DNA from: a virus
Virus record (IMG/VR): IMGVR_UViG_3300006484_000030
Location: 1 to 34,428 of that record
DNA length: 34,428 nucleotides
Reading direction: 5' to 3' (one strand)
Part shown: positions 2,417-13,090 of the stretch, piece by piece
How the letters are laid out: every line of letters starts with the position of its first letter
Numbering within the stretch: position 1 is the stretch's first letter
The notes under the pieces: generated by a model
What the model was told of the DNA's origin: nothing
What the model saw: the letters and a program-made list of their open reading frames with translations, nothing else
Databases searched by the model: none
Made by a program: the position numbers and the translations under genes

Positions 2417-2533
2417 TCAACAATGATTAAGAAAATACACAATAATTGATATTAATGTAGATACAACCATACCCATTATTAAATATAAATTTTTAATTGC
2501 CTTTTCCAGCTTGTAAACATCATAAAGTTTCAT
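2417..2533 (-). CDS. Small single-span membrane protein
   Basis: 38 residues, start ATG at 2531-2533 overlapping the stop of the preceding gene (ATGA). The upstream GAGGAT provides a ribosome site. The sequence is MKLYDVYKLEKAIKN followed by a hydrophobic segment (LYLIMGMVVSTLISIIVYFL) and a short NHC end. It is the last gene of the leftward chain and converges on the endolysin gene. The membrane span is clear; function is unknown. Confidence 0.5.
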   Translation of the reverse strand: MKLYDVYKLEKAIKNLYLIMGMVVSTLISIIVYFLNHC

Positions 2534-2766
2534 CGCATATCCTCACCTAGTTTTTGCAAAATAGCATCATGCTCATCCATAAGAGCATCAACCGTATCTT
2601 CAATTTCGTTAAGCCGTTCTACCAATTTAATGTGTTTTTGTAGTTTGTAATAACCTTTATCATGTAAACAAGCTTCATAACTACCATCAGATGATGAAAG
2701 CCAATGACTCGCTTGAGATTTTATTTGCTCAAGCCGTTTTTTCATTATTTCAAGATTAATTATCAT
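2530..2766 (-). CDS. Hypothetical coiled-coil protein
   Basis: 78 residues from ATG 2764-2766. This start is preceded by GGAGG, which lies inside the codons for the C-terminal HGIGG motif of the upstream gene. The protein is helical and charged (KKRLEQIKSQ, KLVERLNEIEDTVDALMDEHDAILQKL), suggesting a small coiled coil. The frame extends further upstream within the preceding gene, but the strong ribosome site favours this start. Function is unknown; it is probably an early accessory gene. Confidence 0.6.
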   Translation of the reverse strand: MIINLEIMKKRLEQIKSQASHWLSSSDGSYEACLHDKGYYKLQKHIKLVERLNEIEDTVDALMDEHDAILQKLGEDMR

Positions 2767-3160
2767 TATTGCCTCCAATGCCGTGACACTTCTCTGCATA
2801 TAAAGCACCATCTTTAAAACCTTCTCTGTAATCTTCACTACCGCAGAAATCCATAATTTCCAATCCCAAAGGCTCACGTTTTAAATCATGCTCTGCTTGT
2901 GCATAACCTCGTTGGTAAGCTTCACGCTGAGTCATAGGATCGCGTTTTGCATCTTCTACACCTTGTCGGTAATTAACCCAATCTGGTTTAAAAGGCTCTT
3001 TCTCAGTCTGCTCAGGTTGGGCGAGTAGTTCTTGTATAGCTTCATCAATACGATAATGGATGCCGATAGGAACACAGTATTCGCACCACGAATCTGAACA
3101 ATCTTTTAGTTCTAATAGTACAGCCAGTGCTTTATTTAACAAATCTCTTTCAGCACTCAT
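2756..3160 (-). CDS. Modular early protein of the AQPEQ/REPL/HGIGG family (copy 1)
   Basis: 134 residues. It starts MSAERDLLNKAL and ends EKCHGIGGNNDN. It shares with the genes at 3505-3840 and 3837-4352 an N-terminal ER-LL helix, a LLAQPEQ linker, a REPL segment and a C-terminal AEKxHGIGG box. Between linker and REPL this copy has a different module (WVNYRQGVEDAKRDPMTQREAYQRGYAQAEHD), so the family is mosaic. The end of the gene carries the ribosome site for the next gene. Similar proteins are common in phages but I know of no assigned function. Confidence 0.7.
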   Translation of the reverse strand: MSAERDLLNKALAVLLELKDCSDSWCEYCVPIGIHYRIDEAIQELLAQPEQTEKEPFKPDWVNYRQGVEDAKRDPMTQREAYQRGYAQAEHDLKREPLGLEIMDFCGSEDYREGFKDGALYAEKCHGIGGNNDN

Positions 3161-6316: not shown

Positions 6317-6540
6317 CAGAACTCACCTCTTGGCGTTACAAATGAAGGAACATTGCTAGGCAATTCTAGCACCTGATAGATTTGCTCCTCTCCCTTCAGA
6401 TTCTTTTGGATAATGAAGCTACCGCTACGGGTTTTGTGAATCAAAGATGCTTTATCGTTGTAGGAAAACGTATAGCCAAAGATAAAACCGCATGTTAAAG
6501 CGATTGATAGTGCGATTATTGCTATTTGTGTATTACTCAT
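6316..6540 (-). CDS. Hypothetical protein with N-terminal membrane segment
   Basis: 74 residues. Residues 5-25 (QIAIIALSIALTCGFIFGYTF) are one membrane span. The remainder (KTRSGSFIIQKNLKGEEQIYQVLEL) looks like a small beta-rich soluble tail. It is the first gene after the promoter/operator at 6573-6614. Function is unknown; it may act at the inner membrane early in infection. Confidence 0.6.
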   Translation of the reverse strand: MSNTQIAIIALSIALTCGFIFGYTFSYNDKASLIHKTRSGSFIIQKNLKGEEQIYQVLELPSNVPSFVTPRGEF

Positions 6541-6572
6541 AACTTCTCTCTAGTTGTTGTTAATGTGGGCAT

Positions 6573-6601
6573 AGATTAAAACCAATAAACAATCATGTCA
6601 A
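6573..6601 (-). promoter_or_regulatory. Sigma70-type promoter for the 6540 leftward genes
   Basis: On the minus strand a perfect TTGACA (6596-6601) is separated by exactly 17 bp from TAATCT (6573-6578). It lies about 35 bp upstream of the ATG at 6540. The -35 box is one arm of the 19-bp inverted repeat at 6596-6614, so it is probably repressible. Confidence 0.7.
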
Positions 6602-6614
6602 CCCTAGATTGACA
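6596..6614. promoter_or_regulatory. 19-bp inverted-repeat operator, site 1
   Basis: TGTCAA, 7-bp spacer CCCTAGA, TTGACA. Related 19-bp sites occur at 13128-13146 and 14325-14343, all near starts of transcription units. The left arm coincides with a -35 box. A Cro-like regulator encoded next to site 3 is the likely binder. Confidence 0.6.
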
Positions 6615-6618
6615 TTTA

Positions 6619-9600
6619 TTAACGCAATGCGCTCAATAGCCGATTCTGCGTGGCATCTTTCTCATTTATAACTTGCATCACCCTGCCATCAATGCCGTCT
6701 TTTACAACTAAATGTACAATACGTACGGGTTTAGTTTGCCCTTGACGATGTAATCTCGCATTGAATTGTTGGTAATATTCTAATGACCAACACAATGAAA
6801 ACCAAACGGTCATACACCCACCGTCATAAAGGTTGATACCATGTCCTGCTGATTGCGGATGAGCTAATAACAATTTAATTTCACCTCTATTCCATGCTTG
6901 TATAGTTTCATCATGTTTGTCTAAGCGTACTGCTGTTGGAAAACGTGCCTGTAGGCGTTCAAGATCACTTCTATAGTTATAAGCTACAAGGATGTTTTCG
7001 TCATTTTGCTCAATTAATTCAGCTAGAGCATCAAGTTTTGCGGTATGAATTTCTCCCCAATTCTTATATTCATCAACATATATTGCCCCGTTGCAATTGT
7101 GGACAATAAGTAATTGACCTGCGTCGCCACGCACAGTAAATCTATTTCTTTTACCGCAATTTACAATGTCATAGACTCTTTTTTTTTCTTTATCGGTTGA
7201 TTGAACCATTGAGATTCGTCCCATTTGTACCGAAATATCCTTGCATACAATGTTACCGTTTTTATTTTGTAAAAAACTGACGCTTGAGTTACCGTCATTT
7301 TTCCATTCGGAGTATTTATCCAACGGTTCACACGAGTATTGTTTGATTGCTCTTGCACAGTTGCCCAACGACAATTTTCTTTCGAATAGCCTTTTTCGTT
7401 GTCCATTCTCTCTAATGTCAAATGATCCTGATAACTTTCCGACATATCTTCCCAAAAATTTTTGAAAGAAACTTCCCATTCTTTGCAAACCAGTATCCCT
7501 CTTGCCCCATAGTTTGAAAAATCCTTGTCTTTTTTGTTCAAACACCGAGAACGCATATTTGTCCAAATTCGATAGGGTCTTGTGCGAGCCATACCGTGAT
7601 GGGATAGACCTAATCGTTTGCGACCTTCCAATATTGTTTCTCCAAGTGAACATCCGCATGATGCTTTTCCGGGTCTTAACGGTCGATTGTGCAAATTGCT
7701 TCCAATGCGAATAATCTCGTTTCCACATACACATTTGCATAACCATGTTGCATTTTTGTTTTTGCTTGTTCCGGCTTTCTTTAAAACCGTCAGGTAACCG
7801 AACGTTAGCCCTGTTAAATCTTTCACTGGCATTACCATTTAATATATCTCCGGCTGTTTCCCATCCCGATATTGTTAAAACCTTGTGTTCGGGTGTCATT
7901 TTTACACCGTCCAATTTTATTACATCTTTATATCCGTTGCAAACTAATTTGGAATAGTTTGACCATTCTATACCGTCCCACAACATATCGTTTTCGTGTA
8001 ATATTTCTATTGGTTTCCAACCACCATCTGTTAATACTTCAGTACCTTCAGCTATGCAATATTGCAGCAACTTATTAGCTAATACAGCAGCGTTAATGGC
8101 TTCTACTTGATGCCCTTCAAACTCTATGAATAAATCACGCTCAAAGGCTTTATATAAAGCTAAACTTTTACTATCTAATTCTATTTCTTCTATCAAATCA
8201 ATTCGATCTGGCAATTCCAAATAATCAGCGGTTTGCATTGATAAACTATAAGGTTGCATCAGTTTTTGAATTGATGCTTGTGCGCCTTTTCTTGGGGTAA
8301 AGCTATATCCCATATAATCTTGCTCAAAAAAGCGTTGCTTATATGCAGTCATCGTGCGCCCTAATGAATTACCATAGTCAACAAGATAACATTGCGACCA
8401 CAAGTCTAATAGCCCATTAGGGGAAGGTGTACCCGTCAGGAGAACCATATACTCAACAAAAGGTAGTATCTTTTTCATGGCTTTAAAGCGTTGGCTTGCA
8501 GGGTTTTTAAATGAAGAACAATTATGAACTAAAATCCCTTCGGCAAAGTAATCGTTAATCCCGTCTGTTTCCAAATTGTATACTGTTCTTCCACTTTCAC
8601 ATTTGATATTCTCAATATAGTCCACCCTAACTGTTGAAGAAAGGTATCTTTCTTTTCGTCTTGACGCTTTCGCGATCTGTGAGAGTTTCCATCCACCTCT
8701 ATAGCTATTTTTTTTGAATAAATGCCAAAATCTACTTTGTAACATGTTGGATAACCCGACCCTCTTGGCATTTTGGTAGGTATCACACATTGCATTTTCC
8801 ATTCGTCTGATAACATTTCTAACATTAATTGTTCGCAACGTGCTATTTTTCCATTTCCACCTCTTGTTATCGGTCGATGCCCACTTTTCTTGTGTGCATC
8901 GCTTAATTTTTTCTTTATTTCTTCTGACCATTCTTTCCCTTTGTTCCAAATTTTTATTTCCCCATTTGCATATCTTCTTTTTGCAGTAGTTCCAGATTTT
9001 AATAAAATAGCTGCTCTTTCTTCTGGGGTTTTCATCAAATGCATTTGTTTCTTTGAACAAGTTTTGCTGCATAGCTGATGAGTCAGCTTTCGTTTCATAA
9101 AAATCGTTCCGCACAAAATGCAAGCCCCTACATCGCCATGCTTGTACCCACCCCTTTTCTGTTGCAAAAGGATGATCTCTTGTACATTCAATTGTTGATC
9201 CATCGGATAAATATAATTTAACGAGTTCATTTGTTTGTTTCCTAAAAGTTTTTGTAATAGGCATTTCACCGACAGATGTCATTACTAAATCACCTGTTTC
9301 AAGATGTTTTATATCACGAACTCCTAAAGGGGTCAATATCATAGTTCCTTCAGGGAAACATTCATCAATAACCACCATATCAAATGCCCATTTTTTACCG
9401 TAATGATTAACTAACCATTGGACATTTTCTCGGTTAATGACATAAACATCGTAGTCATAGTGTAAAACTTTAAGGCGTGCATTTTGGTCACCCAACACCC
9501 TAGCTACAGATAAATGTTTAGTATGTTCCCATTTGCGTGATTCTTGAACCCACACAGAATTGGCTACTCGCAATGGGGCTATTACTAATACTTTTTTTAC

Positions 9601-9750
9601 TAATTTAGTTTTTAATAAATCGCTAATAGCAGTTAATGTTGATACGGTTTTGCCCAAACCCATTTCTAACATTAAAAATGAGCGTTTTTTATCTTTTATA
9701 AAATCAACAGCTCTATTTTGATATTCGTGTAAATCAATTCGGGAAGGCAT
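6619..9750 (-). CDS. SF2/SNF2-like phage DNA helicase containing two inteins
   Basis: 1043 codons in one open frame. The helicase itself is about 442 residues: 1-130, 411-564 and 886-1043. Visible motifs are Q/I (LHEYQNRAVDFI, LEMGLGKTVS), Ia (VLVIAPLRV), II (VVIDE then CSSFKNP), III (LLTGTPSPNG) and V-VI (HPQSAGHGINLYDGG, QQFNARLHRQGQ). Residues 131-410 and 565-885 are inteins, each starting with Cys, ending His-Asn and followed by Cys. Intein 1 splits motif II, so the unspliced protein should be inactive. The gene follows a VRR-NUC and a polymerase, a standard phage replication cassette. Long internal stretches are also read in the +1 frame as homing endonucleases. Confidence 0.9.
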   Translation of the reverse strand: MPSRIDLHEYQNRAVDFIKDKKRSFLMLEMGLGKTVSTLTAISDLLKTKLVKKVLVIAPLRVANSVWVQESRKWEHTKHLSVARVLGDQNARLKVLHYDYDVYVINRENVQWLVNHYGKKWAFDMVVIDECFPEGTMILTPLGVRDIKHLETGDLVMTSVGEMPITKTFRKQTNELVKLYLSDGSTIECTRDHPFATEKGWVQAWRCRGLHFVRNDFYETKADSSAMQQNLFKETNAFDENPRRKSSYFIKIWNYCKKKICKWGNKNLEQRERMVRRNKEKIKRCTQEKWASTDNKRWKWKNSTLRTINVRNVIRRMENAMCDTYQNAKRVGLSNMLQSRFWHLFKKNSYRGGWKLSQIAKASRRKERYLSSTVRVDYIENIKCESGRTVYNLETDGINDYFAEGILVHNCSSFKNPASQRFKAMKKILPFVEYMVLLTGTPSPNGLLDLWSQCYLVDYGNSLGRTMTAYKQRFFEQDYMGYSFTPRKGAQASIQKLMQPYSLSMQTADYLELPDRIDLIEEIELDSKSLALYKAFERDLFIEFEGHQVEAINAAVLANKLLQYCIAEGTEVLTDGGWKPIEILHENDMLWDGIEWSNYSKLVCNGYKDVIKLDGVKMTPEHKVLTISGWETAGDILNGNASERFNRANVRLPDGFKESRNKQKQKCNMVMQMCMWKRDYSHWKQFAQSTVKTRKSIMRMFTWRNNIGRSQTIRSIPSRYGSHKTLSNLDKYAFSVFEQKRQGFFKLWGKRDTGLQRMGSFFQKFLGRYVGKLSGSFDIRENGQRKRLFERKLSLGNCARAIKQYSCEPLDKYSEWKNDGNSSVSFLQNKNGNIVCKDISVQMGRISMVQSTDKEKKRVYDIVNCGKRNRFTVRGDAGQLLIVHNCNGAIYVDEYKNWGEIHTAKLDALAELIEQNDENILVAYNYRSDLERLQARFPTAVRLDKHDETIQAWNRGEIKLLLAHPQSAGHGINLYDGGCMTVWFSLCWSLEYYQQFNARLHRQGQTKPVRIVHLVVKDGIDGRVMQVINEKDATQNRLLSALR
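7096..8058 (-). mobile_element. Intein 2 in helicase (residues 565-885), mini-splicing domain with out-of-frame endonuclease gene
   Basis: Block A starts CIAEGTEVLTDGGW with Cys565 as residue 1. Block B carries TPEH (MTPEHKVLTISGWETA, about 618-633). Block F is KRVYDIVNCG...FTVRG and block G is LIVHN ending His884-Asn885, with Cys886 as +1. These are the residues needed for class 1 splicing. Between blocks B and F (about 635-855) the helicase frame has no LAGLIDADG, HNH or other endonuclease motif. It is unusually rich in Lys, Arg, Trp, Cys and Asn, as expected of an out-of-frame read. The +1 frame encodes an HNH endonuclease (7161-7838). The host site is LLQY|CNGAIY between helicase motifs. 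Confidence 0.88.
7161..7838 (-). CDS. HNH homing endonuclease with zinc-ribbon, nested out of frame in intein 2
   Basis: 225 residues in the +1 frame relative to the helicase. The N-terminus is the typical phage zinc-ribbon (DLTGLTFGYLTVL...WLCKCVCGNE...SCGC, residues about 7-63). The core is HNH-like: RIWTNMRSRC, FSNYGARGILVCKEW, LTLERMDNEKGYS and KENCRWATVQEQSNN. A C-terminal NUMOD1/HTH-like segment (VTQASVFYKIKTVTLYARI) follows. The ATG at 7836-7838 has GGAGA about 9 bases upstream, supporting independent translation. The gene is full-length for its family, so it is not a decayed fragment. It would cut an intein-less helicase allele to drive intein homing. Confidence 0.85.
   Translation of the reverse strand: MVMPVKDLTGLTFGYLTVLKKAGTSKNKNATWLCKCVCGNEIIRIGSNLHNRPLRPGKASCGCSLGETILEGRKRLGLSHHGMARTRPYRIWTNMRSRCLNKKDKDFSNYGARGILVCKEWEVSFKNFWEDMSESYQDHLTLERMDNEKGYSKENCRWATVQEQSNNTRVNRWINTPNGKMTVTQASVFYKIKTVTLYARIFRYKWDESQWFNQPIKKKKESMTL
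8521..9360 (-). mobile_element. Intein 1 in helicase (residues 131-410), mini-splicing domain with out-of-frame endonuclease gene
   Basis: Block A is CFPEGTMILTPLGVRDI with Cys131 as residue 1. Block B has TRDH (STIECTRDHPFATEKGW, about 185-201). Block F is GRTVYNLETDGINDYFAEG and block G is ILVHN ending His409-Asn410, with Cys411 at +1. It interrupts helicase motif II (VVIDE|CSSFKNP), the ATP-hydrolysis site. Residues about 205-385 have no endonuclease motif in frame and are rich in Lys/Arg/Trp/Asn. Read in +1 the same DNA encodes an EDxHD-type nuclease (8529-9230). Splicing residues look intact, so the intein is predicted active. Confidence 0.88.
8529..9230 (-). CDS. EDxHD (Vsr-like) homing endonuclease, nested out of frame in intein 1
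   Basis: 233 residues from ATG 9228-9230, chosen for its AGGAAA ribosome site; the frame is open to a GTG at 9269. Domain order: a zinc knuckle (CILC...CSKTC), a NUMOD3-like segment (IWNKGKEWSEEIKKKLSDAH), then a Vsr/DUF559-like nuclease with CEQLML, YKVDFGIYSKKIAIEVDG, SHRSRKRQDEKKDTF and GWTILRISN. The E-x-D, H and D residues match the EDxHD class described for endonucleases in phage split inteins. The core lies exactly between intein blocks B and F, and the last 20 codons overlap block F/G. It is in the +1 frame of the helicase gene. Confidence 0.85.
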   Translation of the reverse strand: MNSLNYIYPMDQQLNVQEIILLQQKRGGYKHGDVGACILCGTIFMKRKLTHQLCSKTCSKKQMHLMKTPEERAAILLKSGTTAKRRYANGEIKIWNKGKEWSEEIKKKLSDAHKKSGHRPITRGGNGKIARCEQLMLEMLSDEWKMQCVIPTKMPRGSGYPTCYKVDFGIYSKKIAIEVDGNSHRSRKRQDEKKDTFLQQLGWTILRISNVKVEEQYTIWKQTGLTITLPKGF

Positions 9751-10000
9751 TAACTTGCTCCATACTGTCTATTACTCTTACATCAAACCCCATAGCTCTT
9801 CTGCGGTCATGGTCATTTTTTTGAGCTATTGTTGGAACTTTACCTAGTGCTTTGCACTCTACAAAAATAATACGTTTATCAGGGAGCATAACCAATCTAT
9901 CAGGTACAAAACGTCTACTTGGAGAGGTATATTTTTCACATGTCCCCCCTAATTCTTTTACTTTTTTACATAATGCTTTTTCTATATCTCGTTCAAGCAT
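9734..10000 (-). CDS. VRR-NUC domain nuclease
   Basis: 88 residues from ATG 9998-10000, with AGGAG 7 bases upstream. An upstream in-frame TTG is less likely. The sequence has the compact VRR-NUC fold signature: helix LERDIEKALCKKVKELGG, PDRLVMLPD, FVECKALGKVPTIAQ and a final DHDRRRAMGFDVRVID. Catalytic residues PD...E-C-K are intact. VRR-NUC proteins act on branched DNA and are regular partners of phage polymerase-helicase cassettes. It overlaps the polymerase C-part by 8 bp and the helicase start by 17 bp. Confidence 0.88.
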   Translation of the reverse strand: MLERDIEKALCKKVKELGGTCEKYTSPSRRFVPDRLVMLPDKRIIFVECKALGKVPTIAQKNDHDRRRAMGFDVRVIDSMEQVNAFPN

Positions 10001-10799
10001 AACCAACTCCTGTTAATAATTCATTTGCTTTCATAATGTAATAATCATAATCAATATCAGTAGGAAAAGTATCTGGCAAATCCATAAGGGGCATACATCC
10101 TAAACTTAATGGCACTTTATTGCCATTTTTAGCATAGGTTATAGTTACTTCTTTCAATTCTGGTATTGACGTATGGTAAAATCTTATGGCTTTTCCTAAA
10201 TATGTATCCTGCCACATTGCACCACCGGTAACCGTACGCACAGTCACAAATTTAGTAATGTCAGTGCATTTTTTAATAGTTTGGCTAATCGGTTTACCTG
10301 ATGCTATTTTAGCTATTACCGCTTCATAAATTATTTGCCCGTCAGGGTTCTTAGACAATGACGGATCAGCAAAACAACCTTTTCCTTTTGTCTTGCCATC
10401 AGTTTTAACTGCTAAATAATTATTAACATCCCTTGAAGCTATTATCCTATAATCTGTTTGTTCAAGATTGTAGGTTGTTTTTAATGTCCATTCAGCAAGT
10501 AGTTTCTGCACTAACTCACTATCTTCTGCTCGATATTTAGTTACAATTCCATCAGTGTTTGCACTAACAACTTGTATATTATTTTCTTCTAATACTTCAA
10601 TTAGCATTAGCAAACTTAATTGCCCTGTTATAGTAGTTTGTAGTAATAGTTCAGGTGAATATAAAGCACTAAATCTGCTTCCAAATTTGCCGTATGAGCC
10701 ATTGAGTTGTATTTTTTTACTAGCCTCCTCAGTCTTATACATATTTAATTGTGCTTTTGCTTCAACCAGTTCTTTCTTTAATAAATTTATGTCTTGCAT
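9993..10799 (-). CDS. Family B DNA polymerase, C-terminal polypeptide (motifs B and C)
   Basis: 268 residues. It begins with a helical segment (DINLLKKELVEAKAQLNMYKTEEASKK), which continues the helix ending the N-terminal polypeptide. Motif B is KIQLNGSYGKFGS (about 29-41) and motif C is VVSANTDGIVTKY, with the catalytic Asp in NTDG. A thumb-like region follows. The ATG at 10797-10799 has GAGGAA about 9 bases upstream inside the endonuclease gene, supporting translation as a separate chain. It must pair with the product of 11411-12511 to make an active enzyme, unless the insertion is removed from RNA. Confidence 0.88.
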   Translation of the reverse strand: MQDINLLKKELVEAKAQLNMYKTEEASKKIQLNGSYGKFGSRFSALYSPELLLQTTITGQLSLLMLIEVLEENNIQVVSANTDGIVTKYRAEDSELVQKLLAEWTLKTTYNLEQTDYRIIASRDVNNYLAVKTDGKTKGKGCFADPSLSKNPDGQIIYEAVIAKIASGKPISQTIKKCTDITKFVTVRTVTGGAMWQDTYLGKAIRFYHTSIPELKEVTITYAKNGNKVPLSLGCMPLMDLPDTFPTDIDYDYYIMKANELLTGVGYA

Positions 10800-11436
10800 C
10801 AGACGCTTCCTCTATAGTTTTAAAATATCCAATATAATGACGGACACCTTTAACACCCACTCTGACAATATAACCCCCATCAACATGGGGTGTGACTCCT
10901 CTTACTTTTGTTTTAGAATTATTCCACACGGTTTCATTTGAAATGGATTTTATTGCTTGCTCTTTATCAAGATGGAGCATTTTTATAAAGGCTTTTCTAG
11001 CCTCCACAGCTTCTTGAAAAGTTATAAAGTGTCCAATATGATATCTGACACGTTCGTAATCGTAACGTGCTGAAAAACCAAAGTTTGTTTTTTGTATCCC
11101 TCTCTCACCGGAAGTATTATTTTTAAATGTCCGCCTGTTATCACATTGTTGTGATCGAGTTGCCCATCTACAATTATATTTTGAATAACCCAGATCGTTA
11201 TCAATACGATCTAAACTATGATATTTAGATGGTTTATCACCCATATCTTTTAAAAAATTTTTAAAACGATGCCATTCTTTGCAAACCACAATACCTCTAG
11301 CTCCATAATTTAAAAATGAATTGTCTTTTTCAAAATAACATCTTCGCATCATGTTGTGCCAAGTTATGTATAAAGGATGTTTTACACATTCTTCTTTATC
11401 CCCTCGTTTACTATAAGGTCTTTTTGGTAATGGCAT
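10762..11436 (-). CDS. HNH-AP2 homing endonuclease interrupting the DNA polymerase gene
   Basis: 224 residues from ATG 11434-11436. The frame is open further upstream within the polymerase, but this start begins at the HNH region and has a GAGAG ribosome site. HNH core: ITWHNMMRRC, FLNYGARGIVVCKEW, YHSLDRIDNDLGYSKYNCRWAT. Two AP2 DNA-binding domains follow: RGIQKTNFGFSARYDYE...GHFITFQEAVEARKAF and RGVTPHVDGGYIVRVGVK...GYFKTIEEASDARHKF. It overlaps the 3' end of the polymerase N-part by 26 bp and the start of the C-part by 38 bp. The HNH core is clearly related to the nuclease in intein 2. Confidence 0.88.
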   Translation of the reverse strand: MPLPKRPYSKRGDKEECVKHPLYITWHNMMRRCYFEKDNSFLNYGARGIVVCKEWHRFKNFLKDMGDKPSKYHSLDRIDNDLGYSKYNCRWATRSQQCDNRRTFKNNTSGERGIQKTNFGFSARYDYERVRYHIGHFITFQEAVEARKAFIKMLHLDKEQAIKSISNETVWNNSKTKVRGVTPHVDGGYIVRVGVKGVRHYIGYFKTIEEASDARHKFIKERTG

Positions 11437-12511
11437 TTTCGATCTCTCTTTCCAAAGTTTCAATTCGACATTGTAATTCAGAAACCATTTTTTTTGCAAA
11501 TATTCTACGTTCAACAATAGATTTATATAAGGTTAAAAACTCTCTACCCATATTTTCAGGATAAAGTTCTTGTTGCAAAATAATACTAGGATAAAAAGAA
11601 GTTACATCAAAATCGCTTATTAAATAAGTAGATGATGCTTTTACTAATTGGCTTTTCTCACAACTATGTAAACCACCAATCCCCATTTTATAAATAGTGT
11701 TACCTATTGTTATTTTTTGTCTAGCCAACCACGTTGGCATCTGTACAGAGCCTTTAGCTGACAAAGTAAATTCTTGTTCAAGCAAACTATTATAAATATT
11801 AATTAGCTCTGGATTTTTAAACGAAATAATCAAAGGGTCTTTATAATTAAAGACAAATCCTTCTGCATAATCTTTGGGGCTATATGCATCATTAGTTATA
11901 GCATTAAGTTCTGATTTAATAACTGTTTCAGCAATTTGAGCATCAGATTTAGAACGTAAATCCATACCGTAGGTGGCTTTCATTTCTCTACGGAGATTTA
12001 TTTGAGGTAATAACTTGTTATAAAGAAGCTCCGTCAATTCCAAATCGTTTTGACAATAAAGTTCTAATATTTCACGTTGTTCTGGCGAGATAGAACTTTG
12101 TGGGTCTATAGGTAAATCTTGCATCTTTTGAGTATGCAATCTACCACCATATATCTTTAATGACGCAACTCCAATGGCAACTTCTATAAGGTCAATATGG
12201 TTATAATTTTTTACCGTTAAATCTTTATCTTTTAAAATCTGATAAGTGGGTTTATCACTTAATATTATTTGATTTGATAATTTATGTAATTTTTGACAAT
12301 CCCATCCTGCTAATGCTCCAGATATAATTGGTAGATCATAGTTATTACCATTAAAGCTAATAAGTTCTACTTTTAATATTTCACCTAATAGTTCTTTATT
12401 TAACTTACAATCAGCGTGCATAGGAATTTTAGTAATCTTCCCTGACTTACTATTTTTAGCGCAAAAAAGAAAGTAGTCTTTATAACATTCCACATCAATG
12501 AATACTGCCAT
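11411..12511 (-). CDS. Family B DNA polymerase, N-terminal polypeptide (exonuclease and motif A)
   Basis: 366 residues. Proofreading exonuclease motifs are visible: ExoI FIDVEC (D6, E8), ExoII ISFNGNNYDLPII and ExoIII YCQNDLELTELL. Polymerase motif A is DFDVTSFYPSII (about residues 300-311). The chain ends in a helix (IVERRIFAKKMVSELQCRIETLEREIENA) and then a few residues from the inserted endonuclease gene. The break falls where family B polymerases have their fingers helices, a position tolerant of splitting. The ribosome site AAGGACC precedes ATG 12511. An intrinsic terminator lies just upstream. Confidence 0.9.
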   Translation of the reverse strand: MAVFIDVECYKDYFLFCAKNSKSGKITKIPMHADCKLNKELLGEILKVELISFNGNNYDLPIISGALAGWDCQKLHKLSNQIILSDKPTYQILKDKDLTVKNYNHIDLIEVAIGVASLKIYGGRLHTQKMQDLPIDPQSSISPEQREILELYCQNDLELTELLYNKLLPQINLRREMKATYGMDLRSKSDAQIAETVIKSELNAITNDAYSPKDYAEGFVFNYKDPLIISFKNPELINIYNSLLEQEFTLSAKGSVQMPTWLARQKITIGNTIYKMGIGGLHSCEKSQLVKASSTYLISDFDVTSFYPSIILQQELYPENMGREFLTLYKSIVERRIFAKKMVSELQCRIETLEREIENAITKKTL

Positions 12512-12530
12512 TGTTGGTCCTTGTGATGAT

Positions 12531-12554
12531 AAAAAAGCCCCAATTAAGGGGCTT
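12531..12554 (-). terminator. Intrinsic terminator between ssDNA-binding protein and polymerase genes
   Basis: Minus strand: AAGCCCC, 6-nt loop, GGGGCTT (12535-12554), followed by a T-rich tract (complement of 12531-12536). Placed between the DUF2815-like gene and the polymerase, it probably sets a higher level for the binding protein than for the polymerase. Confidence 0.75.
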
Positions 12555-12580
12555 AGTTGATAAGTATCAGTTTAAAAGTA

Positions 12581-13090
12581 TTAGAATTCAGACACATCTT
12601 CAAAATCATCAACAGATGCTGATGCGCCATCGGAGAATGGTTCACCATTTCTATAGAATTGTACTGCACTCAAATTACCTAGTATTTGTTTACCACCTTT
12701 TGGGTGATCTGAATACCAGAAATCTAATATGGCATTTACGTAACAACCTGCGTATAAACGACCATCTTCTTCCGCTAAAGGTGTTTTATCAGCATCAATT
12801 AGCAAAGGTCTTTTGGTACTTCCGGCTTTAAGAGCCATCATACCTTCATAACCATCATATTCCTTCTCATCACCATCTTTAAGAGCAGTGATTTTTAAAC
12901 CTTTAGGGATTTTACCTTCAAATTTTTCTTCTATGTAGTCATCAATCGCTTTTTCTACTTTTTTATGAGTAGGTGAACCTTTTTCAAACAAAAAAGTTGC
13001 TTCAAACTTTGTTTCGACACCATCAAATACAGATTTTTTGAACAAAGATGGGAAAGAAAGACGTACATTTTCTATTTTAATTTTTGACAT
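12581..13090 (-). CDS. DUF2815-like phage single-stranded DNA-binding protein
   Basis: 169 residues starting MSKIKIENVRLSFPSLFKK, the signature opening of the DUF2815 family, followed by FEATFLFEKG, LKAGSTKRPLLID, GRLYAGCYVNAILDFWY and LSAVQFYRNGEPF. It ends in an acidic tail (ASVDDFEDVSEF), the usual feature by which ssDNA-binding proteins contact partner enzymes. DUF2815 members are found with phage family polymerases, DUF2800 nucleases and SNF2-like helicases, exactly as here. The ssDNA-binding role is known from fold similarity rather than seen directly. A promoter and operator lie upstream at 13128-13161. Confidence 0.85.
   Translation of the reverse strand: MSKIKIENVRLSFPSLFKKSVFDGVETKFEATFLFEKGSPTHKKVEKAIDDYIEEKFEGKIPKGLKITALKDGDEKEYDGYEGMMALKAGSTKRPLLIDADKTPLAEEDGRLYAGCYVNAILDFWYSDHPKGGKQILGNLSAVQFYRNGEPFSDGASASVDDFEDVSEF

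Follow-up and report, generated by a model that had tools for sequence, protein, structure and literature searches.

Inteins of a phage helicase and its relatives with homing endonucleases predicted in a second reading frame

The stretch of viral DNA analysed here, referred to as the window, comprises positions 1 to 34,428 (34,428 nucleotides) of the IMG/VR record IMGVR_UViG_3300006484_000030. On its minus strand lies the gene of a SNF2-like phage helicase with two inteins, each of which overlaps a predicted homing endonuclease gene in another reading frame. The helicase precursor of 1043 amino acids (6619..9750, minus strand; phrog_62, 2e-138) is encoded by an open reading frame (ORF) with 0 stops in 1043 codons, which stays open across both inteins. 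Intein 1 (8521..9360, minus strand, 280 amino acids) follows the DE of helicase motif II (IDE^C...LVHN^CSSF), and intein 2 (7096..8058, minus strand, 321 amino acids) is inserted after LLQY (LLQY^C...IVHN^CNGA). Joined without the two inteins, the exteins give a helicase of 442 amino acids. Pfam recognises SNF2-rel_dom (2.5e-19) in the ORF and Intein_splicing (4.2e-12) in intein 1. Both inteins start with Cys1, carry a block B histidine (TRDHPF and TPEHKV, respectively) and end in His-Asn followed by cysteine (VHN^C). Intein 2 alone stays under the cut-offs (Pfam E 0.0039, NCBIfam 0.024), and its family profile matches the solved Mtu RecA intein (1.1e-5) and NEQ068 intein (9.4e-5). For intein 1, the family profile hits a bacterial intein-like domain (1.8e-19) as well as the Mtu RecA intein (6.5e-14). 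The nucleophile, the block B histidine, the His-Asn-Cys junction and the continuous frame from N- to C-extein are those of class 1 cis-splicing inteins, and the sequence-only reading of this DNA, which had described an open helicase frame with two inteins, was correct in this respect.

That reading had also placed the endonucleases outside the intein frame, in two different families, and this is confirmed. In the intein frame of either window intein, Pfam shows no domain between blocks B and F, and a predicted endonuclease ORF is offset by one base (+1) in both. The first, called V, appears VSR-like, has an N-terminal cysteine cluster and occupies 8529..9269 (minus strand; core 8532-9173) within intein 1. 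It matches Pfam DUF559 (3.3e-11), and E159, D161, H165, R168 and D172 of its core, E-x-D-(3)-H-(2)-R-(3)-D, are invariant in seven sequences; we take this core to be of the type named EDxHD. The best solved match of the V profile is 3hrl, an 'Endonuclease-Like Protein' (1.4e-9). The second, called H, occupies 7161..7838 (minus strand) within intein 2, is assigned to the HNH type by PHROG (phrog_374 'HNH endonuclease', 1.2e-60) and shows 42 invariant alignment columns in six sequences. The likeness to solved homing endonucleases consists of weak profile matches, of V to 3r3p (E 0.15) and of H to 1u3e (E 0.16), presumably the EDxHD enzyme I-Bth0305I and the HNH enzyme I-HmuI; these two we take to be intron-borne, in contrast to the intein-borne V and H. 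The EDxHD name itself occurs in a review (PMC3943268).

Relatives were collected by endonuclease-based scans (the best 80 of 253, 8 of 8, the best 80 of 356 and the best 80 of 597 loci, plus phage records), and the counts therefore describe the best-matching loci that were scanned rather than the whole collection. The scans gave 302 endonuclease places, of which 283 were kept after dropping 19 with a match or ORF under 240 nucleotides; these form 232 clusters at 95% identity. The sequence-only reading had proposed a search for the same arrangement among intein linkers of phage proteins; in these endonuclease-based scans, the arrangement recurred many times. Among the 70 V clusters, 67 lie at +1 in a cis-open intein, one is cut short (C-terminal intein part, IntC, only, at +1) and two have no detected intein. 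The 162 H clusters comprise 18 cis-open at +1, one cis-open at +2, one split with stops, one with IntC only and 141 without an intein. In none of the 232 V and H clusters is the endonuclease in frame with the intein. When loci were ranked by the H-type splicing profile instead (the best 80 of 374, forming 63 clusters), HNH lay at +1 in a cis-open intein in 63/63; because nested members went into this profile and it covers the linker as well, the selection is less biased, not unbiased.

The arrangement extends beyond phage helicases. Of 17 V matches in GTDB genome contigs (one genome per species), ten are nested at +1, one has IntC only and six have no intein; two of the ten nested inteins (L263 and L269) interrupt dnaX at DE^C, in a metagenome-assembled genome of Bacteroides and in an uncultured Lachnospiraceae genome. 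Across the scanned loci, 221 of 228 intein pairs (duplicates included) hold a V or H endonuclease, and there are six distinct others. Two of these, at L021 (9042-9965) and L343 (4933-5877), carry another HNH-like type at +2, within inteins of a terminase and of an unidentified protein; the remaining four (L147, L175, L249, L317) have no alternative-frame run over 111 codons. For comparison, two inteins were inspected that, judging from the motif, presumably have an in-frame LAGLIDADG endonuclease: one in the portal protein of Mycobacterium phage Cane17 and one in the thymidylate synthase of Aeromonas phage PS1. The Cane17 intein has alternative-frame runs of 130 and 131 codons; the PS1 intein has no alternative-frame run of 90 codons or more, and no such long run was found in the Hint domain of Ruminococcus phage NatCom_3870.

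Named phages show the same picture. Five isolates, namely Vibrio phages 159E43-1b, 1.088.O and CP-T1, Corynebacterium phage phi673 and Pseudomonas phage MR14, carry V at +1 in a helicase intein, and the V gene is unannotated in all five of their records. In Hamiltonella phage APSE-1, Caulobacter phage GB2A and Shewanella phage SFCi1, it is a PolA intein that holds H, again at +1; in the GenBank record of APSE-1, the HNH is a separate gene inside the polymerase gene. Four further PolA inteins, from Sodalis phage SO-1, Escherichia phage Pubbukkers, Salmonella phage FSL SP-101 and EBPR siphovirus 2, hold a related HNH at +2. Matches to the FSL SP-101 intein occur in 166 of 50,697 phage records, in 163 of them over at least 80% of the intein's length; the +2 frame was checked in three of the matches (FSL SP-101, Pubbukkers, SO-1), and the PolA inteins of the 163 records probably carry the +2 version. 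Further nested HNH genes at +2 are found in L301, L337, L021 and L343. A rule that nesting must be at +1, on the grounds that +1 stops can always be avoided synonymously and that Met followed by I, M, T, N or K forces a +2 stop, was considered and is refuted by these +2 genes; such Met pairs are present in 56/67 V and 17/18 H clusters. The arrangement, of which the sequence-only reading knew no described example, is widespread, in many phage V and H clusters and in PolA inteins at +2. Its argument from two independent cases in one gene needs correction: both cases belong to families that are at +1 in every cis-open cluster examined, and they are therefore inherited, not two fresh events. Since +1 is inherited within V and within H, the clusters are likewise not independent nesting events.

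The openness of the linker was assessed against synonymous shuffling of the endonuclease gene, with stops counted in the intein frame (20,000 shuffles per window endonuclease). In the window, 0 stops are observed where 12.9 (V overlap) and 16.6 (H overlap) are expected, and zero occurred in no shuffle. All 85 nested +1 clusters have zero stops, against 624 expected (482 in the 67 V and 142 in the 18 H clusters). Stop numbers in the other register of the nested genes are about as expected. Where no intein is detected (141 H genes), the register that nested genes keep open contains a median of 16 stops, with 17.7 expected. When seven +2 loci were shuffled, zero stops fell below the shuffles in five (p 0.007 or less) and was not significant in L021 and L343 (p 0.088 and 0.081).

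Substitutions between relatives indicate which frame is constrained. In 11 independent pairs (each locus used once), the counts of changes at host positions 1/2/3 are 301/210/450 upstream of the overlap and 869/453/450 inside it, where host position 1 is the wobble position of the endonuclease. A random-placement test (400 placements each) was applied to seven pairs chosen from 31. Amino-acid changes in the endonuclease frame are below all 400 placements in 7/7 pairs, those in the host-frame linker are as many as random or more in 6/7, and host-frame stops number 0 versus 3.2-9.3 expected per pair; the sole endonuclease-frame stop counted (L122/L139) is, by the ORF ends, their shared terminal stop. 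With fewer changes in the endonuclease and a random-like but stop-free linker, the endonuclease frame is therefore under purifying selection, and the linker mainly avoids stops. This comparison of constraint in both frames, which the sequence-only reading had suggested, thus gives a constrained endonuclease in every pair tested.

Translation starts are compatible with separate expression of the endonucleases. A start codon lies near the endonuclease N-terminus in 84/85 clusters, and the mean best Shine-Dalgarno (SD) energy is -7.55 kcal/mol, versus -6.31 kcal/mol in equal numbers of out-of-frame starts (0/2000 draws as strong). The SD-bearing starts are clearest in H, where the best-SD start is located just after block B, 220 or 202 nucleotides from the intein start in 14/18 clusters (the others at 208, 187, 187 and 172). 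In the window, it is the ATG at 7838, preceded by the SD-like site GGAG (7848..7851, minus strand) just after block B. For V, the candidates in the window are GTG 9269, ATG 9230 or TTG at about 9191. Taken together, the shuffles, the position-specific changes, the SD-bearing starts and the selection tests point to what had been claimed at the outset, namely dual-coding DNA in which the intein frame stays open in cis and translation of the endonuclease can start on its own.

Close relatives of the window provide alleles without an insert. L001/L083 is identical to it (100% over 10.7 kilobases), may be the same virus as that of the window and adds no independence. L002 has intein 2 and an empty site 1, and the seven very similar contigs L084-L090 have intein 1 and an empty site 2, so that an empty allele exists for each intein. 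Intein lengths and endonuclease registers are unchanged in all of these. The intein-2 frame of the window is 77% identical to that of L002, and the H frame 84%; for L084-L090, the corresponding values are 58% (intein-1 frame) and 67% (V frame). In L182 and L183, a V intein and an H intein again occur together in one helicase. Horizontal movement of intein 2 is supported because its nucleotide identity to L002 (88.0%) is far above that of the exteins (61.4% and 66.0%), where more than half of the fourfold sites have changed. Distances of splicing domain and endonuclease correlate (Mantel 0.62 for 18 H and 0.36 for 67 V clusters; 0/5000 permutations as high), and the two therefore appear to travel largely as a unit. 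As a separate observation, L036 has an HNH gene, 52% identical to part of H, directly upstream of a homologous helicase, which is possibly a pre-insertion state.

Other relatives depart from the cis-open form. In four PolA-like contexts (L003, L340, L348, L352), the arrangements resemble split inteins. In L003, the linker holds five stops, and a related HNH is at +1. In L340 (135-1157), L348 (1351-2364) and L352 (1286-2302), the N-terminal intein part (IntN), HNH and IntC each occupy a frame of their own, and the IntN frame contains 14, 21 and 26 stops, respectively; these three contigs also carry a nested H intein. Such relatives appear to show the fate of the linker when reading through is not needed. 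In one of the 63 clusters chosen by splicing domain (L351, 3001-3501), an intein of 167 amino acids has lost the HNH core and kept both HNH ends in +1, an apparent decay to a mini-intein.

Given these results, the window elements are best explained, with a probability of roughly 90%, as mobile cis-splicing inteins whose homing endonuclease is a separate overlapping gene, translated from an internal start. The homing endonuclease would be a gene of its own in another frame over the linker between blocks B and F, not a domain of the intein. Translation of the messenger RNA from the helicase start would give one precursor, from which both inteins would splice out to leave the helicase. Internal starts within the inteins of the same messenger RNA would give two free endonucleases, one VSR-like and one HNH. 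Each endonuclease probably cuts intein-less helicase alleles, and repair would then copy the whole intein. The peptide encoded by the linker in the intein frame would be a filler selected to hold no stop codon. Protein splicing, internal initiation and empty-site cleavage are steps that we infer.

Several results weigh against this explanation. AlphaFold models of both inteins were useless (mean predicted local distance difference test scores of 31.9 and 38.3, from two-sequence alignments). A Pfam search of H gives no match, so that HNH is not recognised there. The V start is unclear in the window and in L084 (best SD energy -5.3 and -4.9 kcal/mol), about 10% of clusters have a best SD weaker than -5 kcal/mol, and the H cluster L199 has none. 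Of the intein-free H relatives, 24/141 are also below shuffles at p<0.05, and three at p<=0.001. Upstream changes lack the peak at host position 3 in 2/11 pairs (L118/L133, L163/L170), and the linker frame of the window/L084 pair is slightly constrained (1/400 random placements as low). The transfer signal is weaker for intein 1, with 74.2% identity versus 57.9% and 64.3% for the exteins (against L086).

Among the other explanations, a programmed +1 ribosomal frameshift that makes an IntN-endonuclease fusion, with no internal start, survives best and is still improbable. The endonuclease is at +1 to the host frame in both V and H, which a single +1 shift would reach. However, the SD-bearing starts of H recur at 202 or 220 nucleotides from the intein start, and related inteins use +2, which is out of reach for one +1 shift. 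Even less likely are split inteins, in which pieces of the helicase would trans-splice, with a free endonuclease gene between them and a linker that is open by accident. This form does exist, with HNH between the halves, in the four PolA-like relatives described above. These split-like relatives, however, do show stops in the IntN register, whereas nested clusters show none in 85/85, with 624 expected. The sequence-only reading had named stop-filled linkers in homologues as evidence for splitting; they occur in those four relatives, whose arrangement is split-like, and the other intein-flanked clusters with both intein ends present are open. The third explanation, by which protein splicing does not occur and each insert is an intron or simply an out-of-frame HNH insertion, has very little chance of being right. 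Insertions of the latter kind (ShiLan type) have been published for phage methylases (PMC11855218), and the nested HNH that GenBank lists in the polymerase gene of Sodalis phage SO-1 is annotated as a type I intron. Against this stand the Cys1 and His-Asn-Cys blocks, the profile matches to solved inteins, and the insertion of V inteins directly after DE in 64/67 clusters as parsed (the sites of L167 and L178 are misparsed). In addition, an Rfam scan of the window gave no intron at the gathering threshold, and none of the four sub-threshold matches in 6500-12600 (E up to 5) is an intron. Finally, a linker frame open by chance or through a high content of guanine plus cytosine (G+C), as in L228 and L230, two members of the 141 intein-free H genes that lack stops over the matched stretch (G+C 62% and 54%), is scarcely credible for window overlaps at 38-39% G+C and for a frame that stays open across many diverged clusters; the shuffles and the comparison with relatives lacking an intein speak against it.

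The elements can be compared with known systems. Canonical inteins with an in-frame endonuclease resemble them in several ways: they have the splicing blocks, sit within conserved catalytic motifs, are absent from some alleles, hold an endonuclease between blocks B and F, and move horizontally, as is supported here for intein 2. They differ in that their endonuclease is part of the intein polypeptide, whereas here it lies in another frame, at +1 in the window, with its own start. Fractured genes, reportedly described by Dassa et al. in 2009, are said to have split inteins with a free-standing endonuclease between the halves, a VSR-like family being among those described. They share the free endonuclease gene between IntN and IntC, and split inteins with a free endonuclease are also mentioned in PMC7891396. 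In contrast to fractured genes, where the halves are on separate ORFs, the window helicase frame is open throughout the linker, and the window inteins would therefore be cis-splicing and the DNA dual-coding; L003, L340, L348 and L352 represent the split form with a related HNH. The insertions in phage methylases share an out-of-frame HNH and a host frame left open, and are not inteins; the authors of PMC11855218 report no splicing motifs and no detectable ribosome-binding site. The present elements differ in holding intein blocks and, mostly, SD-like sites.

In the open PubMed Central literature, as far as titles, abstract starts and some passages go, no out-of-frame endonuclease inside an intein was found; a preprint titled on non-canonical intein architecture could overlap. 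In passages of the review PMC3943268, endonucleases are given only as free-standing from introns or as intein fusions. The initial remark that no described example was known agrees with these searches for the intein version, but not for the out-of-frame HNH as such: the form without an intein is published (PMC11855218), and GenBank lists nested HNH genes in APSE-1 and SO-1.

Endonuclease genes also interrupt the neighbouring polymerase gene. The window DNA polymerase gene (9993-12511, minus strand) is in two ORFs in different frames (11411-12511 and 9993-10799). What breaks it is an ORF for an HNH-like endonuclease (10762-11517), which overlaps the two; no intein is seen there, and this is a third homing-type gene within 5 kilobases. 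The polymerase of L002 is interrupted at another place, by an ORF at about 2442-3128, which, from its motif, we take to be a GIY-YIG endonuclease.

Beyond the window, it is likely, with somewhat less assurance than for the two inteins themselves, that frame-nested inteins are a third, common mobile class, in which splicing and homing are two independently translated overlapping genes. This class would have several origins (V at +1, H at +1, the PolA HNH at +2 and another HNH at +2) and would have spread with its nested gene through phage helicase, PolA, DnaX and terminase genes. It would form a continuum with split inteins, whose linkers have regained stops or have yet to purge them, and with mini-inteins, whose endonuclease core is deleted. 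Frame-nested inteins would break the dichotomy between endonucleases that are free-standing from introns and those that are fused to inteins, and would uncouple splicing from the expression and folding of the endonuclease. They would also be plausible as an intermediate state that connects split with cis inteins, and may account for some of the large intein linkers in which no domain is recognisable. The nested homing endonucleases are missed by phage annotation, being mostly unannotated in the records examined. The long same-strand overlaps, with one frame constrained and the other mainly kept open, would offer a clean test system for the evolution of overlapping genes.
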